Source: Candidatus Rokuibacteriota bacterium
Lineage (GTDB): Bacteria > Methylomirabilota > Methylomirabilia > Rokubacteriales > CSP1-6
Length of the DNA stretch: 64,000 bases
Direction of reading: 5' to 3'
Assembly (NCBI GenBank): GCA_003220615.1
Contig: QHTB01000139.1
Coordinates: 1,983 to 65,982 of the forward strand
Shown: one piece after another, positions 28,439 through 33,157 of the stretch
Layout: each line of letters begins with the position of its first letter
How positions within the stretch are numbered: position 1 is the stretch's first letter
Program-made: the position numbers and the translations under genes
The notes under the pieces: model-generated
Database searches by the model: none
Told to the model about the DNA's origin: nothing
The model's input: only the letters and a program-made list of their open reading frames with translations

Positions 28439-29719
28439 TTAGTGCCGGCCGCTCCGCTCGGGCCGGTCGATGCGCTCGCGCCGCTCGACGCGCTCGACGC
28501 GCTCCACTTTCTCGACACGCTCGACTTTCTCGACGCGCTCGGGCCGATCGACCCTGTCGACTTTCTCGGCGCGATCGATCCGATCGGAACGGCCGGCGCG
28601 GTCTTGACGATCCACCGGCTCGGCACGATCGAGCCGCGTCACGCCTCGAGTCGTGATCGTCGGCGCCCCGCTCCGAGCACCTCGATCCACCATCCGCGGG
28701 CCTCGTCCTTCGTCGCGGCGGTCCCCGCCCCCGCCCTTTTCGGAGTGATCGGCCTCCACAACCGCCGGTCCGCTCGTGGACTCGCGCCGTGGGCCCTGAC
28801 GCTTGTCAGGATCGGGTGACGATCCTCCGCGCTCGAGCTTGTTGTCTCCATCACCCAGCACACCGTCTCCTCGCGGCACCACACTCACACTCGCCGGCCG
28901 ACCGCCAGGGGGCGCGCCCAGTCCGAACGGAGGGCCCGACGTGTCGACGACCGGGCTCTCCGGCACCGCGGGGCTCGACGGCGGTGAGATGGCGGAAACG
29001 GCTGGGACGTCGAATTGTGGCGTCCGCTCGGCGACCGCCTGTCGAGACGGCGTGGGTGGCGACGCCGGGCGCGTCACCGGCCGGTCAGGGGCTGGCGCGG
29101 GAGCGCTCGCGACGTCACCGTTCGACGCGGGAGACTGCTGCTTCGGTGGCGAGGGCTCGGGCGTCGTCGCGCGAATCTCGCGACTCGTCACCGTGTGGGG
29201 GAGCACCGATCGCACCGTCGTTCTCACGTCTCGCTCGGGGAGCGCCGACGCCGCGGGCGTGTTCGAGACGGGAGCGCGGTCCGGCAGCGTGATCGCAGCG
29301 CGATCGGTGTGGCTGCGCTCGCCGCGATCGATCGCCGCGGTGGGAGTCTCGGCACGCCTGGGCGCCGGCATCCAGTCGCCGACGTGAACGCGCAGATGGT
29401 CGGCCAGATCGGCGATGTGTCCGAGCCGCGTCGTCATGTCACCCAGGCGGCCACGCAGCGCCTCGAGCTGTGGTTGGAGCGACGGTGCTCGGGACGGCGA
29501 CGCCGCAACGCCCACGACGCCTAACAGCGCGGCGAGACCGAACCCCGTGCCGGCCACCAGCCGACCGATCCGCGCGAAGCGCTCGCGGCGGGCCACCTCG
29601 TCGGGTTGACCTTCCGCCGGGGTGAAGCCGAAGGCGGCGAGGACGAGGCAGAAGGTCAGCGCGCCGATCGCGGCGGCCACCATGCTGCCGAACAGCAGGA
29701 CATGCGCAATCGAATGCAT
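28439..29719 (-). CDS. Two-helix membrane protein with Pro-rich stalk and Arg/Asp/Glu repeat tail
   Basis: A 426-residue protein from ATG 29719 (GTG 29737 is possible). Residues 1-35 and 55-75 are membrane helices (LLFGSMVAAAIGALTFCLVL; GTGFGLAALLGVVGVAA), followed by a short coil (LEALRGRLGDMTTRLGHIAD), a long Pro/Ser/Ala-rich stalk (about 120-330), and a final 60 residues of alternating Arg with Asp/Glu (for example VEKVERVERVERRERIDRPE) ending in DRPERSGRH. The same final nine residues end the protein at 31138. The N-terminal part resembles the next gene (29782). Function unknown; the tail looks like a polyampholyte interaction module. Confidence 0.7.
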   Translation of the reverse strand: MHSIAHVLLFGSMVAAAIGALTFCLVLAAFGFTPAEGQPDEVARRERFARIGRLVAGTGFGLAALLGVVGVAASPSRAPSLQPQLEALRGRLGDMTTRLGHIADLADHLRVHVGDWMPAPRRAETPTAAIDRGERSHTDRAAITLPDRAPVSNTPAASALPERDVRTTVRSVLPHTVTSREIRATTPEPSPPKQQSPASNGDVASAPAPAPDRPVTRPASPPTPSRQAVAERTPQFDVPAVSAISPPSSPAVPESPVVDTSGPPFGLGAPPGGRPASVSVVPRGDGVLGDGDNKLERGGSSPDPDKRQGPRRESTSGPAVVEADHSEKGGGGDRRDEGRGPRMVDRGARSGAPTITTRGVTRLDRAEPVDRQDRAGRSDRIDRAEKVDRVDRPERVEKVERVEKVERVERVERRERIDRPERSGRH

Positions 29720-29781
29720 ATGCGTCGCGTGACCCACCAGGCATGACAGCAAATCGAGCGCCAGCCAGCGGGCGGGATGGT

Positions 29782-30171
29782 TCAGCGAGGCGACGAGCGG
29801 CCGGCGGCTCCTGCGTCGGTGTGGTCCACGCGCTCCAGCACCGCATCGATGGACCGTGCAATATCACGGACCTTGGCCTCGATCGATCCGATACGGCCTT
29901 CGAGGGCGCGGACGTCCTGCGAGACCGAGCGGTCAGCGACGCCCGAGCGTGAGGTCAGGGCGACCACGCTGAGGAATGCCGTGACTGCGAAGCAGACTGC
30001 AGCCGCAGCGTGGCCGATGCGGATCAGGAAGAGACGCCGCCGTGCGGAATCAGGCGTCTCGTCGTCGGCCGAGGTGAACCCGTAGCCGACGATCAGCAGC
30101 GACAGGGTGATGCCCCCGAGGGCGCTGGCGACGACACTGCCGGTCAGAGCGTATTGAGCCGTCTGCTCCAA
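29782..30171 (-). CDS. Two-helix membrane protein, paralog of the 28439 gene's N-terminus
   Basis: A 129-residue protein, apparently starting at TTG 30171 without a clear ribosome-binding site. Two membrane helices (TGSVVASALGGITLSLLIVG and HAAAAVCFAVTAFLSVVALT) are followed by a short amphipathic coil (DVRALEGRIGSIEAKVRDIA, RSIDAVLERVD). The helix-GFTSADDETPDSARRR-helix arrangement parallels HVLLFG...GFTPAEGQPDEVARRE in the neighbouring longer protein, so the two derive from one ancestor, the longer having gained the stalk and repeat tail. It lies 11 bases after the barrel gene's end and is likely in one transcript. Confidence 0.65.
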   Translation of the reverse strand: MEQTAQYALTGSVVASALGGITLSLLIVGYGFTSADDETPDSARRRLFLIRIGHAAAAVCFAVTAFLSVVALTSRSGVADRSVSQDVRALEGRIGSIEAKVRDIARSIDAVLERVDHTDAGAAGRSSPR

Positions 30172-30182
30172 TCGCGACGAGC

Positions 30183-31061
30183 TTACCAGCGACCGAACTT
30201 CCAGGACAGCTCGATGCCGCCGCCCCAGTCGGGACTGCCGTTGGTCAGCCCGACGAAGACGTTCGGCGTCACGGAGATCGTTCGCGAGACCTTGAAGGTG
30301 ACCATGCCGTTCAGCTCGAGCGGATCGTTGCCGCGGGAAATCGCACGGCGCCAGTCGAGCAGCGCGCTGACGGTGATGGTGGGCGTCACACGGTAGCCGG
30401 CACCGACGCTCGCCCCTGGGCGATTGTGAAAGTCTTGACCGGGCGGATCACCCATGAACGTGTAGCTCGCGTCGCCGTAAATGAAGAACGCTCCGAAGGT
30501 CTTGTCCCACTCGAGGCCGAAGCCCCAGTCCACCTCGCCGGTGCCCAGCCCTTTGTTCTCGTCAGCGGTCGGGAGCTTCAGCTTCAGGAAGGGCGCCAGC
30601 GTCGGCAGCCACGAGTCGGGGCCGGGATCGTCCACGACGTAGTAGCGGCCCTTGAGGATCATGTCACCGAAACCCGAGTTGACCTCGCGCGCCCCGGCAG
30701 CCCCCTGCGTGTTCTGGGGCTGGCCGTCGACGATGACGACGTTGCCGGGCGCGTCGAGCCGGACGAACGACGTGGTGACGCCGAGGTCCCACCGCTCGCC
30801 CAGGTACCTCAGCGTGAACGGGAAGAAGAAGGTCCGCGTCTTCTGGGACGTCCCGAAGTCACCCTCGTCGTACGAGGGGCCGATCTTGAGCTGGAAGTGC
30901 TCGCGCTCTGCGGCCCGAGCCTCGATGACGGGCCGGTCTTCGATGGAAGGCGCCGAGGGCTGATTCGGCCGTGCCTGAGCCCCGACGGGCGCCGAAGACG
31001 CGAGATGAAGGAAGACGAGACCAAGAAGGACGGCAATCAGAGCAGCACGGCGGTCTGGCAC
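30183..31061 (-). CDS. Outer-membrane beta-barrel, MetA-type transporter family
   Basis: A 292-residue exported protein from GTG 31061 with signal peptide (LIAVLLGLVFLHLASSAPVG). The mature part is a run of alternating amphipathic strands ending in the outer-membrane signature phenylalanine-tryptophan (GGIELSWKFGRW). Strand motifs such as GSGF-D/GLK (VNSGFGDMILKGRYYVVDD), TLAPFLKLKLPTADENKGLG and WGFGLEWDKTFGAFFIYGDA match the putative phenol-degradation outer-membrane (MetA_deg) family. It may be a small-molecule channel. It sits between the membrane protein at 29782 and the secreted repeat-tail protein. Confidence 0.8.
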   Translation of the reverse strand: MPDRRAALIAVLLGLVFLHLASSAPVGAQARPNQPSAPSIEDRPVIEARAAEREHFQLKIGPSYDEGDFGTSQKTRTFFFPFTLRYLGERWDLGVTTSFVRLDAPGNVVIVDGQPQNTQGAAGAREVNSGFGDMILKGRYYVVDDPGPDSWLPTLAPFLKLKLPTADENKGLGTGEVDWGFGLEWDKTFGAFFIYGDASYTFMGDPPGQDFHNRPGASVGAGYRVTPTITVSALLDWRRAISRGNDPLELNGMVTFKVSRTISVTPNVFVGLTNGSPDWGGGIELSWKFGRW

Positions 31062-31137
31062 TCAGGGCTCCTTGTGCCGCGATGGTGACACGGCGAATCT
31101 CGCCGCCCACCACCGCGGATGTCAAGAAATTCCGGCT

Positions 31138-31819
31138 CTAGTGGCGGCCGCTCCGCTCCGGCCGGTCGAGTCGATCGGCGCGTTCGGTGCGTTCGACACG
31201 CTCGACGCGGTCGCTTCGGTCGTTGCGCTCGACCCGGTCGGGCCGATCGCCGCGGTCGCCGCGACCCGAGCGGTCGTCGCGATCGCCCCGCGCCTGATCT
31301 CGGCCGCTGTGCTCGCTGCCCGGGCCGCGATTGCCGTCACGCACCTCGGTGCGCACGCGGCCGTCCTCGAACTTCGCAATCATCCGCGTCCCGTTGACGA
31401 CGGCCTGAACCCTGAGCTCGCGGAGATTGTTCTGAGCTCCGAGCCTCGTCACGAACGCGTTGAAGTCGGCTTGATTGGCGAAGCTCAACCCCTGGAGCTT
31501 CACCTCGCCACGCTCGATCTTGGCTTCGAACGGCGTGCCCTCGACCGTTCCCACGAGCTTCACCTCCGTGCCGGGCTTGGTCTGCACGGTGCTGACCAGC
31601 GTGGTGAAGGGCGCTGAGCTGAACGCGTTCGCGTCGGTCACCACCAGCCCGCGCACCTGCAGCTCGCCACCGTTGGGCAGGTTGTTCAGGGGCCCCTGCA
31701 CGTCGGCCAGGCTCGTGGCGGTCACCTTGTTCCGGCCGGGAAGAAGTTTGCGCCGCCGCTGGAACGCCGATCCCTATCGCAAGCATCAGGACCCACAGTG
31801 CTGTGGCGCGTCGTTTCAT
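31138..31819 (-). CDS. Secreted protein with Arg/Asp/Glu repeat tail, apparent frameshift after signal peptide
   Basis: The signal peptide (MKRRATALWVLMLAIGIGVP, then AAAQ) starts at ATG 31819 with GGAGGAAGCC before it, but the mature domain is in another frame that becomes open at GTG 31725. The switch lies at about 31727-31745. The domain (LPNGGELQVRGLVVTDANAF, LVSTVQTKPGTEVKLVGTVE, GTPFEAKIERGEVKLQG, ELRVQAVVNG) has the OB-like strand pattern of DUF5666-type exported proteins. The last 55 residues are Arg/Asp/Glu repeats (RVERNDRSDRVERVERTERA) ending DRPERSGRH, identical to the end of the protein at 28439. Either a sequencing error or a truncated, cytoplasmic product. Confidence 0.68.
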
Positions 31820-32014: not shown

Positions 32015-32542
32015 CTAGGGGCTGACCTCGAGCGCCGGATGACGGAGCCAGAAGTAGCCTCCCATCGCAGCGGCCGCCAGGAGATTCGCCACCAGCACGG
32101 CCGGCCAGGTCAGCGCCTTCAACACCGGAGCCGCGAAGAGCATCGCCGTCACCGTGAACCCGAACTCGAAGACGACGAAGAGCAGCAGCACGCCGAAGCC
32201 GATGTTCGGGTTGCGCTCCGCCATCGCGAGCAGGCGCGACGCCACTCCGCCGATCGCGGCGAAGGTGAGCCCGTGGACCCACGTGAACATCAGCACCATG
32301 TCCATCGAGACCGGCAGCGTGTCGTACGACCCGACCACGGTGGCCCGGCCGAAGAGCGCCGTCCCCAGGACGGTCGGTGTGTAGAGCGGCCGTCCGTGGA
32401 GGACATCCACGACGAGGAACCAGAGGGCGACGGTGAGGGCTCCGATAATGCCGGCGACGAGGCCTTCCTGGTAGAGGCGCGCGGTGTCGGCGGCGGGAGC
32501 GGAAACCCGTGCGGTTGCGGTCGCGTCGGTCTGAGCGGTCAT
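32015..32542 (-). CDS. Four-helix membrane protein, tandem paralog A
   Basis: A 175-residue protein from ATG 32542 (GTG 32545 just upstream is possible), AAAGGGG before the start. After a polar N-terminus it has YQEGLVAGIIGALTVALWFL (helix 1), a loop DVLHGRPLYTPTVLGTALFG, and three more helices (FTWVHGLTFAAIGGVASRLL, LLLFVVFEFGFTVTAMLFAA, VLVANLLAAAAMGGYFWLRH). The neighbour at 32633 shares every landmark. The family is known to me only as uncharacterised membrane proteins; the conserved DVLHG-P loop may be the active face. Confidence 0.72.
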   Translation of the reverse strand: MTAQTDATATARVSAPAADTARLYQEGLVAGIIGALTVALWFLVVDVLHGRPLYTPTVLGTALFGRATVVGSYDTLPVSMDMVLMFTWVHGLTFAAIGGVASRLLAMAERNPNIGFGVLLLFVVFEFGFTVTAMLFAAPVLKALTWPAVLVANLLAAAAMGGYFWLRHPALEVSP

Positions 32543-32632: not shown

Positions 32633-33157
32633 TCAGGGGTGCATCGTCAGCTGCGGGTGGCACCGCCGGAAATATCCGGCCATCGCCGTCGCCGCGAACA
32701 GGTTGCCGACCAGCGCGACCGGCCACATGAGGCCGTGGAGGATCGGCGCGGCGAAGATCATGTTGACGACCGTGAAGGCGAAGCCGAACACCGTGGCCAG
32801 CAGCACGAAGCAGAAGCCGAGGCTCGGATGGCGATCGACGCGCCCGAGGAGGTGCGCGGCGAGCCCGCCGATGGCCATGAACGCCAGCGCGCGGAGCCAG
32901 ATGAACATCATCGCCATCTCCATGGAGACGGGCGCCTTCTGCACTGCGTCGAACGGCATGCTGTGGTCGAAGAGCGCCGTGCCGAGCGCGCTTGCCGTGT
33001 AGAACAGGCGGCCGGTGACAACGTCCACGACCAGGCCCCAGAGCGTGATCGTGGCGGCGCCGATGATGCCGGCGGTGATGCCCTCTTGATAGGGCCGGGC
33101 CGCCTCCGAGGCAACTGCCGCGGGTACGCCGGTGGTGAGGTGGGTCCGAACAGCCAT
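32633..33157 (-). CDS. Four-helix membrane protein, tandem paralog B
   Basis: A 174-residue protein from ATG 33157, GAGGAG at nine bases. It follows paralog A segment by segment: YQEGITAGIIGAATITLWGL, DVVTGRLFYTASALGTALFD, FIWLRALAFMAIGGLAAHLL, VFGFAFTVVNMIFAAPILHG, and a final GNLFAATAMAGYFRRCHP. The two are about half identical by eye and are separated by 90 bases, so they arose by an old tandem duplication and could form a heterodimer. Function unknown. Confidence 0.72.
   Translation of the reverse strand: MAVRTHLTTGVPAAVASEAARPYQEGITAGIIGAATITLWGLVVDVVTGRLFYTASALGTALFDHSMPFDAVQKAPVSMEMAMMFIWLRALAFMAIGGLAAHLLGRVDRHPSLGFCFVLLATVFGFAFTVVNMIFAAPILHGLMWPVALVGNLFAATAMAGYFRRCHPQLTMHP

Follow-up and report, generated by a model that had tools for sequence, protein, structure and literature searches.

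Two neighbouring envelope proteins with unrelated bodies, here called A and B, carry the same kind of charged C-terminal tail, and the gene of an outer-membrane barrel lies between them. Similar tails recur on other protein bodies beside the same barrel subfamily in at least six phyla. The association holds in both directions, from the barrel to the tail and from the tail to the barrel. The tails end in a loosely conserved motif, x-G-[RK] followed by none to two residues. We suggest that the tail may be a periplasmic module which serves the barrel in trans.

The locus and its two tails

The window, that is the whole analysed stretch of 64,000 nucleotides, holds the four genes of interest on the minus strand in the order B, barrel, S, A (Table 1). 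This is the arrangement of the first-pass annotation, which had placed the barrel and a second membrane protein between the two tailed proteins. The second membrane protein, S, is indeed present; its description has to be corrected, as its sequence marks it as a tail-less paralogue of A (found with the N-terminal part of A as query, E = 3e-13).

Table 1. Positions of the genes and tail elements in the window
Feature	Position	Strand	Remark
Protein A	28439..29752	-	start probably ATG 29719 (426 aa) or TTG 29752 (437 aa)
Tail of A, polyampholyte	28439..28621	-	final 60 residues and stop
DRPERSGRH and stop of A	28439..28468	-	terminus of A
Protein S, two-helix membrane protein, 129 aa	29782..30171	-	A paralogue by sequence, without tail
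Predicted FapF-type outer-membrane barrel (Pfam Phenol_MetA_deg)	30183..31061	-	Pfam, profile, AlphaFold, Foldseek
Protein B	31138..31819	-	signal peptide, unnamed domain and tail; frame-broken as assembled
Tail of B, polyampholyte	31138..31320	-	final 60 residues and stop
DRPERSGRH and stop of B	31138..31167	-	terminus of B

Both tails were found where they had been annotated, and each runs into DRPERSGRH and a stop codon. The DNA of the two genes is similar at the ends, as had been claimed, with 90% identity over the last 30 nt and 72.5% over the last 120 nt. A shared suffix of nine residues has a p value of about 5e-6 in shuffles that preserve tail composition and the three-residue phase. 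The bodies are unrelated: with B as query the alignment to A is confined to residues 145-195, the tail. The tails are well-mixed polyampholytes of R, E and D whose net charge per residue is around 0.05. Over the final 50 residues of A the charged fraction amounts to 0.66, the net charge per residue to 0.06, and the longest run of same-sign charges is 2. Well-mixed tails of such low net charge are expected to be extended and disordered. The earlier idea of a charge zipper finds no specific support, since the charges are well mixed and AlphaFold shows no secondary structure in the equivalent tail of the exported family P (see below). We therefore dropped it in favour of a disordered polyampholyte.

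Protein A has two transmembrane helices close to its N-terminus, a short coiled-coil-like stretch, a linker of about 220 residues rich in Pro, Ser and Thr, and the R-x-E/D tail. The only hydrophobic windows are at residues 3 and 51. Orthologues with two helices, linker and tail are present in the sister species (G001) and in G044, G035 and G031, where they end in KPERIGRR, RPERGGKR, RVERGGKR and KPERRGRH, respectively. The topology prediction for A is not firm, as the loop contains 4 K/R against 4 D/E. From this weak loop charge together with the resemblance of the tail to tails of exported proteins, we infer that the tail faces the periplasm. In three genera the tail is carried by the inner-membrane protein A, which argues for a tail that acts in the periplasm. 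A third paralogue of the S/A two-helix family (L002, G000:C70) has another C-terminal domain in place of the tail. Upstream of B lie two neighbouring paralogues of a four-helix membrane protein (32015-32542 and 32633-33157); a Pfam scan of the first gave no match, and homologues adjoin S/A genes in G001, G031 and G013.

Protein B is less straightforward. Its ATG at 31819 is preceded by a good ribosome-binding sequence, GGAGGAAG, and opens a signal peptide; the body (31725-31138) is in another frame. Thus, of the exported protein annotated at this place the signal peptide and the tail are confirmed, whereas signal peptide and body do not form one reading frame. The assembly is a draft of 233 contigs, so that either a wrong base or decay of the gene may account for the break. 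A programmed frameshift was rejected: the stretch folds no better than its shuffles (z 1.0), and an assembly error or decay is the simpler explanation. B contains no hydrophobic windows. In the sister species G001 B is missing at the same site, with the DNA conserved on both flanks. B is probably a second, decayed carrier of the tail. Its body was also considered as a widespread partner or core and discarded, as we found it in only one tailed Rokubacterial protein and otherwise at the C-terminus of lipoproteins, where it has no tail. The B-like exported protein of G031 ends in SGSNSGRH.

A terminal motif on different bodies

The exact ending proved too strict as a search key. Among 148 genomes R-x-ERSGRH is confined to two sites, both in the window, so that the ending is absent from all 147 relatives, and the two sites are likewise the only ones in the genome itself with RPERSGRH before a stop. 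DRPERSGRH is thus not constant across the family. Judged by the sequences, the constant part is x-G-[RK] with 0-2 further residues, of which DRPERSGRH is one form, and the search was loosened accordingly. Degenerate patterns for the internal tail and the tail end were also run genome-wide; chance matches dominated and we do not use them as evidence.

G[RK] with 0-2 further residues ends 36 of 45 tail proteins (21 of 26 in the non-redundant set), compared with 30 of 257 ordinary called proteins (12%). Shuffling the tails of the reduced set of 26 in 20000 trials gave such an end to 1.0 of them on average and to 7 at most; tail proteins share descent within body types, and these figures are not strict probabilities. 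The terminus is conserved beyond chance and the tails are not random low-complexity sequence without positional or terminal conservation. Most tails contain hardly any Gly, yet it recurs near the end. Some members lack the motif, namely those of Thauera (PERR), Kiritimatiellae (KPNE) and Zoogloea.

As had been proposed, the tail is a C-terminal module that recurs on different bodies: next to the barrel family we find A, B, P, the Nitrospira type N1 and the Croceicoccus type C. Family P consists of exported proteins in which a signal peptide and a helical domain are followed by a K-P-E-K-P-E tail that mostly ends in PGR; in P homologues with Gly/Ser-rich tails, too, G[RK] or a near variant is the usual end. 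In the AlphaFold model of P the helical domain is confident (about 95) and the tail unstructured (50-68). The domain did not match any solved fold (best E = 0.25). At a Nitrospiraceae locus (L143) two adjoining tail proteins precede the barrel, the first ending in DRPERSGRH and the second in EKPERPGRN. The identity of the former with the window ending argues more strongly than anything else against a local copy. A small exported protein made almost entirely of R-x-E repeats was seen at L019 (G001:C15) and L027 (G000:C42); it ends in ERRGK in G001, and the G000 copy runs off the contig.

The barrel and its tailed neighbours

The window barrel is matched by the Pfam family Phenol_MetA_deg (PF13557) with E = 4.6e-9 and 37.1 bits against a gathering score of 22. 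A profile of ten barrel sequences compared with the PDB retrieved FapF (5o65) at E = 2e-13 and nothing else below 0.2. With the AlphaFold model of the barrel (pLDDT 85) as Foldseek query, the top 18 matches are all FapF chains (E = 1e-12, TM about 0.64); the COG4313 protein 4rl8 follows at rank 20, and FadL-like proteins match too. FapF has an N-terminal trimeric coiled coil, a linker and a helical plug, all of which are absent from the model of the window barrel. Only about 25 low-confidence residues separate its signal peptide from the first strand, and in most relatives inspected the barrel likewise begins close behind the signal peptide. By sequence and model, the window barrel is a predicted FapF-type channel devoid of coiled coil and plug.

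Whether such barrels co-occur with the tails was the check suggested by the first-pass annotation, and the answer is positive across at least six phyla. Starting from the barrel, a tailed exported or membrane neighbour is present at 17 of 21 strong homologous loci, the window locus excluded. The four exceptions are G055, where the contig ends, and G051, G030 and a more distant second copy in G025, which have no tail neighbour. For the opposite direction the internal tail pattern was searched in a collection of 84,980 species, which gave a sample of loci. These were confirmed with a tail-containing query, so that the set leans to similar tails; the barrels there were detected with Rokubacterial barrel queries and thus independently of the tail. 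At least 40 loci were confirmed, and at no fewer than 25 of them the gene of a FapF-like barrel lies next to the tail gene, either before or after it. They belong to Rokubacteria, Microbulbifer, Thauera, Zoogloea, Burkholderiales, another betaproteobacterium, a gammaproteobacterium, Croceicoccus, Nitrospira, Elusimicrobia, Kiritimatiellaeota and Persicirhabdus. Among the matches listed, all exported P-, N1-, C- and Z-type tail loci except the P-type L155 have the barrel adjacent, and the barrel-less loci are mostly other proteins with internal repeats. Tail proteins without an adjacent barrel are A and the B-like protein of G031, the protein at G001:C15 and the P protein of the window's own genome at C159.

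The link is specific for the subfamily. The scan also covered 40 barrels that fall outside the close subfamily, together with 6 from sphingomonad plasmids, and found no exported neighbour with such a tail beside them; its few matches there resemble wrong-frame open reading frames, a ribosomal-protein-like open reading frame or other charged ends. When the tail label is mapped onto a tree of 89 barrels, 8 changes suffice, compared with 29 for shuffled labels. The tail-linked barrels are spread over several subclades, and the barrel piece of L146 is poorly placed.

Some neighbourhoods deserve mention. Downstream of the barrel at L143 and L154 (Nitrospira) we named by eye an ECF-type sigma factor, two proteins with a glycogen-binding-like domain, of which the first is a likely anti-sigma protein, and a further tail protein ending in SGRGRD(H). 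The barrels of L171, L172 and L175 have no charged tail nearby; their neighbours end in GRGGRK (Gly-rich), MMGR (Gln/Asn/Met-rich) and SRSHR (Ser/Gly-rich). In most of the Microbulbifer species (L132-L141) the tail gene lies between the barrel gene and a gene for an ExbB-like proton channel, which may be coincidence.

Possible roles of the tail and relation to known systems

In FapF the periplasmic coiled coil and the plug regulate the channel (PMC5557850). We suggest tentatively, as the reading we favour, that the tail is a disordered docking or plug module which acts in trans on the short FapF-type barrel. The neighbouring tail protein would supply the coil and plug function that FapF has in cis. 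A mobile, intrinsically disordered tail facing the periplasm would reach the periplasmic mouth of the barrel, and the conserved end x-G-[RK]-x would enter the pore or dock in it. In most lineages the carrier would be a soluble exported protein of the P, N1, C or B type. In the lineage of the window it would be A, anchored in the inner membrane by its two helices, and its Pro-rich linker may suffice to cross the periplasm in a TonB-like manner. It is possible, and we put this forward with more reserve, that a widespread two-component envelope device is at hand, in which a coil-less FapF-type barrel is gated in trans by the disordered charged tail of its partner, with x-G-[RK] as the docking end and varied bodies serving the same pore. 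Contact of tail and barrel, be it plugging or gating, is what we infer here; the gene adjacency could instead be that of a substrate and its exporter. The barrel would then be a secretion pore and the tailed proteins its substrates, the tail with x-G-[RK] being the export signal of a reduced Fap-like system. FapF does export a polypeptide (PMC5557850), the barrel is its relative by profile and fold, and in many lineages the partner is an exported low-complexity protein, in some cases with a Gly/Ser- or Gln/Asn-rich tail. We nevertheless consider secretion rather unlikely. The same tail is present on A, whose two transmembrane helices make secretion of the whole protein impossible, the coil and plug critical for FapC secretion (PMC5557850) are missing, and the neighbours scanned gave no match to a Fap subunit or FapD-type protease family. 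Since plain secretion does not cover A and a periplasmic role at the barrel does, we favour docking or plugging.

Tail and barrel could also belong to the same envelope pathway without touching each other, the tail binding peptidoglycan, LPS or polysaccharide or keeping its protein extended, and the barrel moving a small molecule. The wider fold group contains solute channels (4rl8 and the FadL-like matches), small molecules are the presumed cargo of COG4313 and other Phenol_MetA_deg channels, and some tails have no adjacent barrel. This is quite doubtful in our view, as it leaves unexplained the tight, subfamily-specific pairing on several bodies and the conservation of the last residues. Finally, the tails might be mere low-complexity sequence from DNA repeat expansion. 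A and B would then owe their common end to recent copying from one gene to its neighbour, and the basic ends would result from general selection for charged, protease-resistant C-termini. The repetitive codons (GTCGAGCGC and similar), the similarity of the last 120 nt of A and B and the share of ordinary proteins with a G[RK] end would fit. We regard this as very improbable: the same ending is found in Nitrospirota on a different body beside the barrel, Gly is rare in most tails yet recurs near their end, and the association with a single barrel subfamily is reciprocal. The cross-phylum conservation of terminus and genomic context disfavours it.

The Fap system is the closest known relative, in barrel family and fold as well as in the position of the gene beside exported repetitive, low-complexity proteins. 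The barrel described here differs by the missing N-terminal coiled coil and plug, and its partners by the charged tail with the x-G-[RK] end. No NCBIfam or Pfam match to the FapB/FapC amyloid repeats, the FapD protease or FapE was found in A, S, the barrel or B. The window barrel shares with Phenol_MetA_deg/COG4313 (PF13557, PDB 4rl8) a score above the Pfam gathering score and the fold; it is nearer to FapF in both profile and fold and is genomically tied to the tails, whereas the distant members examined are not.

TonB has an inner-membrane anchor, a Pro-rich disordered periplasmic linker, charged repeats and a C-terminal end aimed at an outer-membrane barrel. The same elements are proposed for A, which in contrast has two helices and would make the contact by a disordered tail; a TonB C-terminal domain is not present in A, which has no Pfam match beyond noise. 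The PEP-CTERM and GlyGly-CTERM tags are short conserved C-terminal elements that recur, within one genome group, on many exported proteins without common ancestry, and the tail resembles them in being a short conserved C-terminal element common to unrelated exported proteins. A PEP-CTERM-like C-terminal transmembrane helix with basic residues is absent from A and B, which also gave no NCBIfam match.

Complete Fap systems have been reported only in Beta-, Gamma- and Deltaproteobacteria, and 69% of the matches to a FapF profile lie outside fap operons, from which a larger protein family was inferred (PMC3792158). We found no account of a function for the FapF-family barrels outside these operons, nor a published account of the tail or its pairing with the barrel, in a literature search that left preprints and most subscription journals aside. 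Taken with the gene pairing across phyla, this points to a tail-and-pore partnership that has not been described before.

In summary, the reciprocal link spans Rokubacteria, Nitrospirota, Pseudomonadota, Elusimicrobiota, Verrucomicrobiota and Kiritimatiellota and gives a genetic handle on FapF-family barrels, with culturable hosts such as Microbulbifer, Thauera and Croceicoccus. The partnership would bring in a C-terminal module that has no helix and yet addresses a pore of the outer membrane, and would show that low-complexity charged tails, which annotation usually ignores, can have a conserved function.
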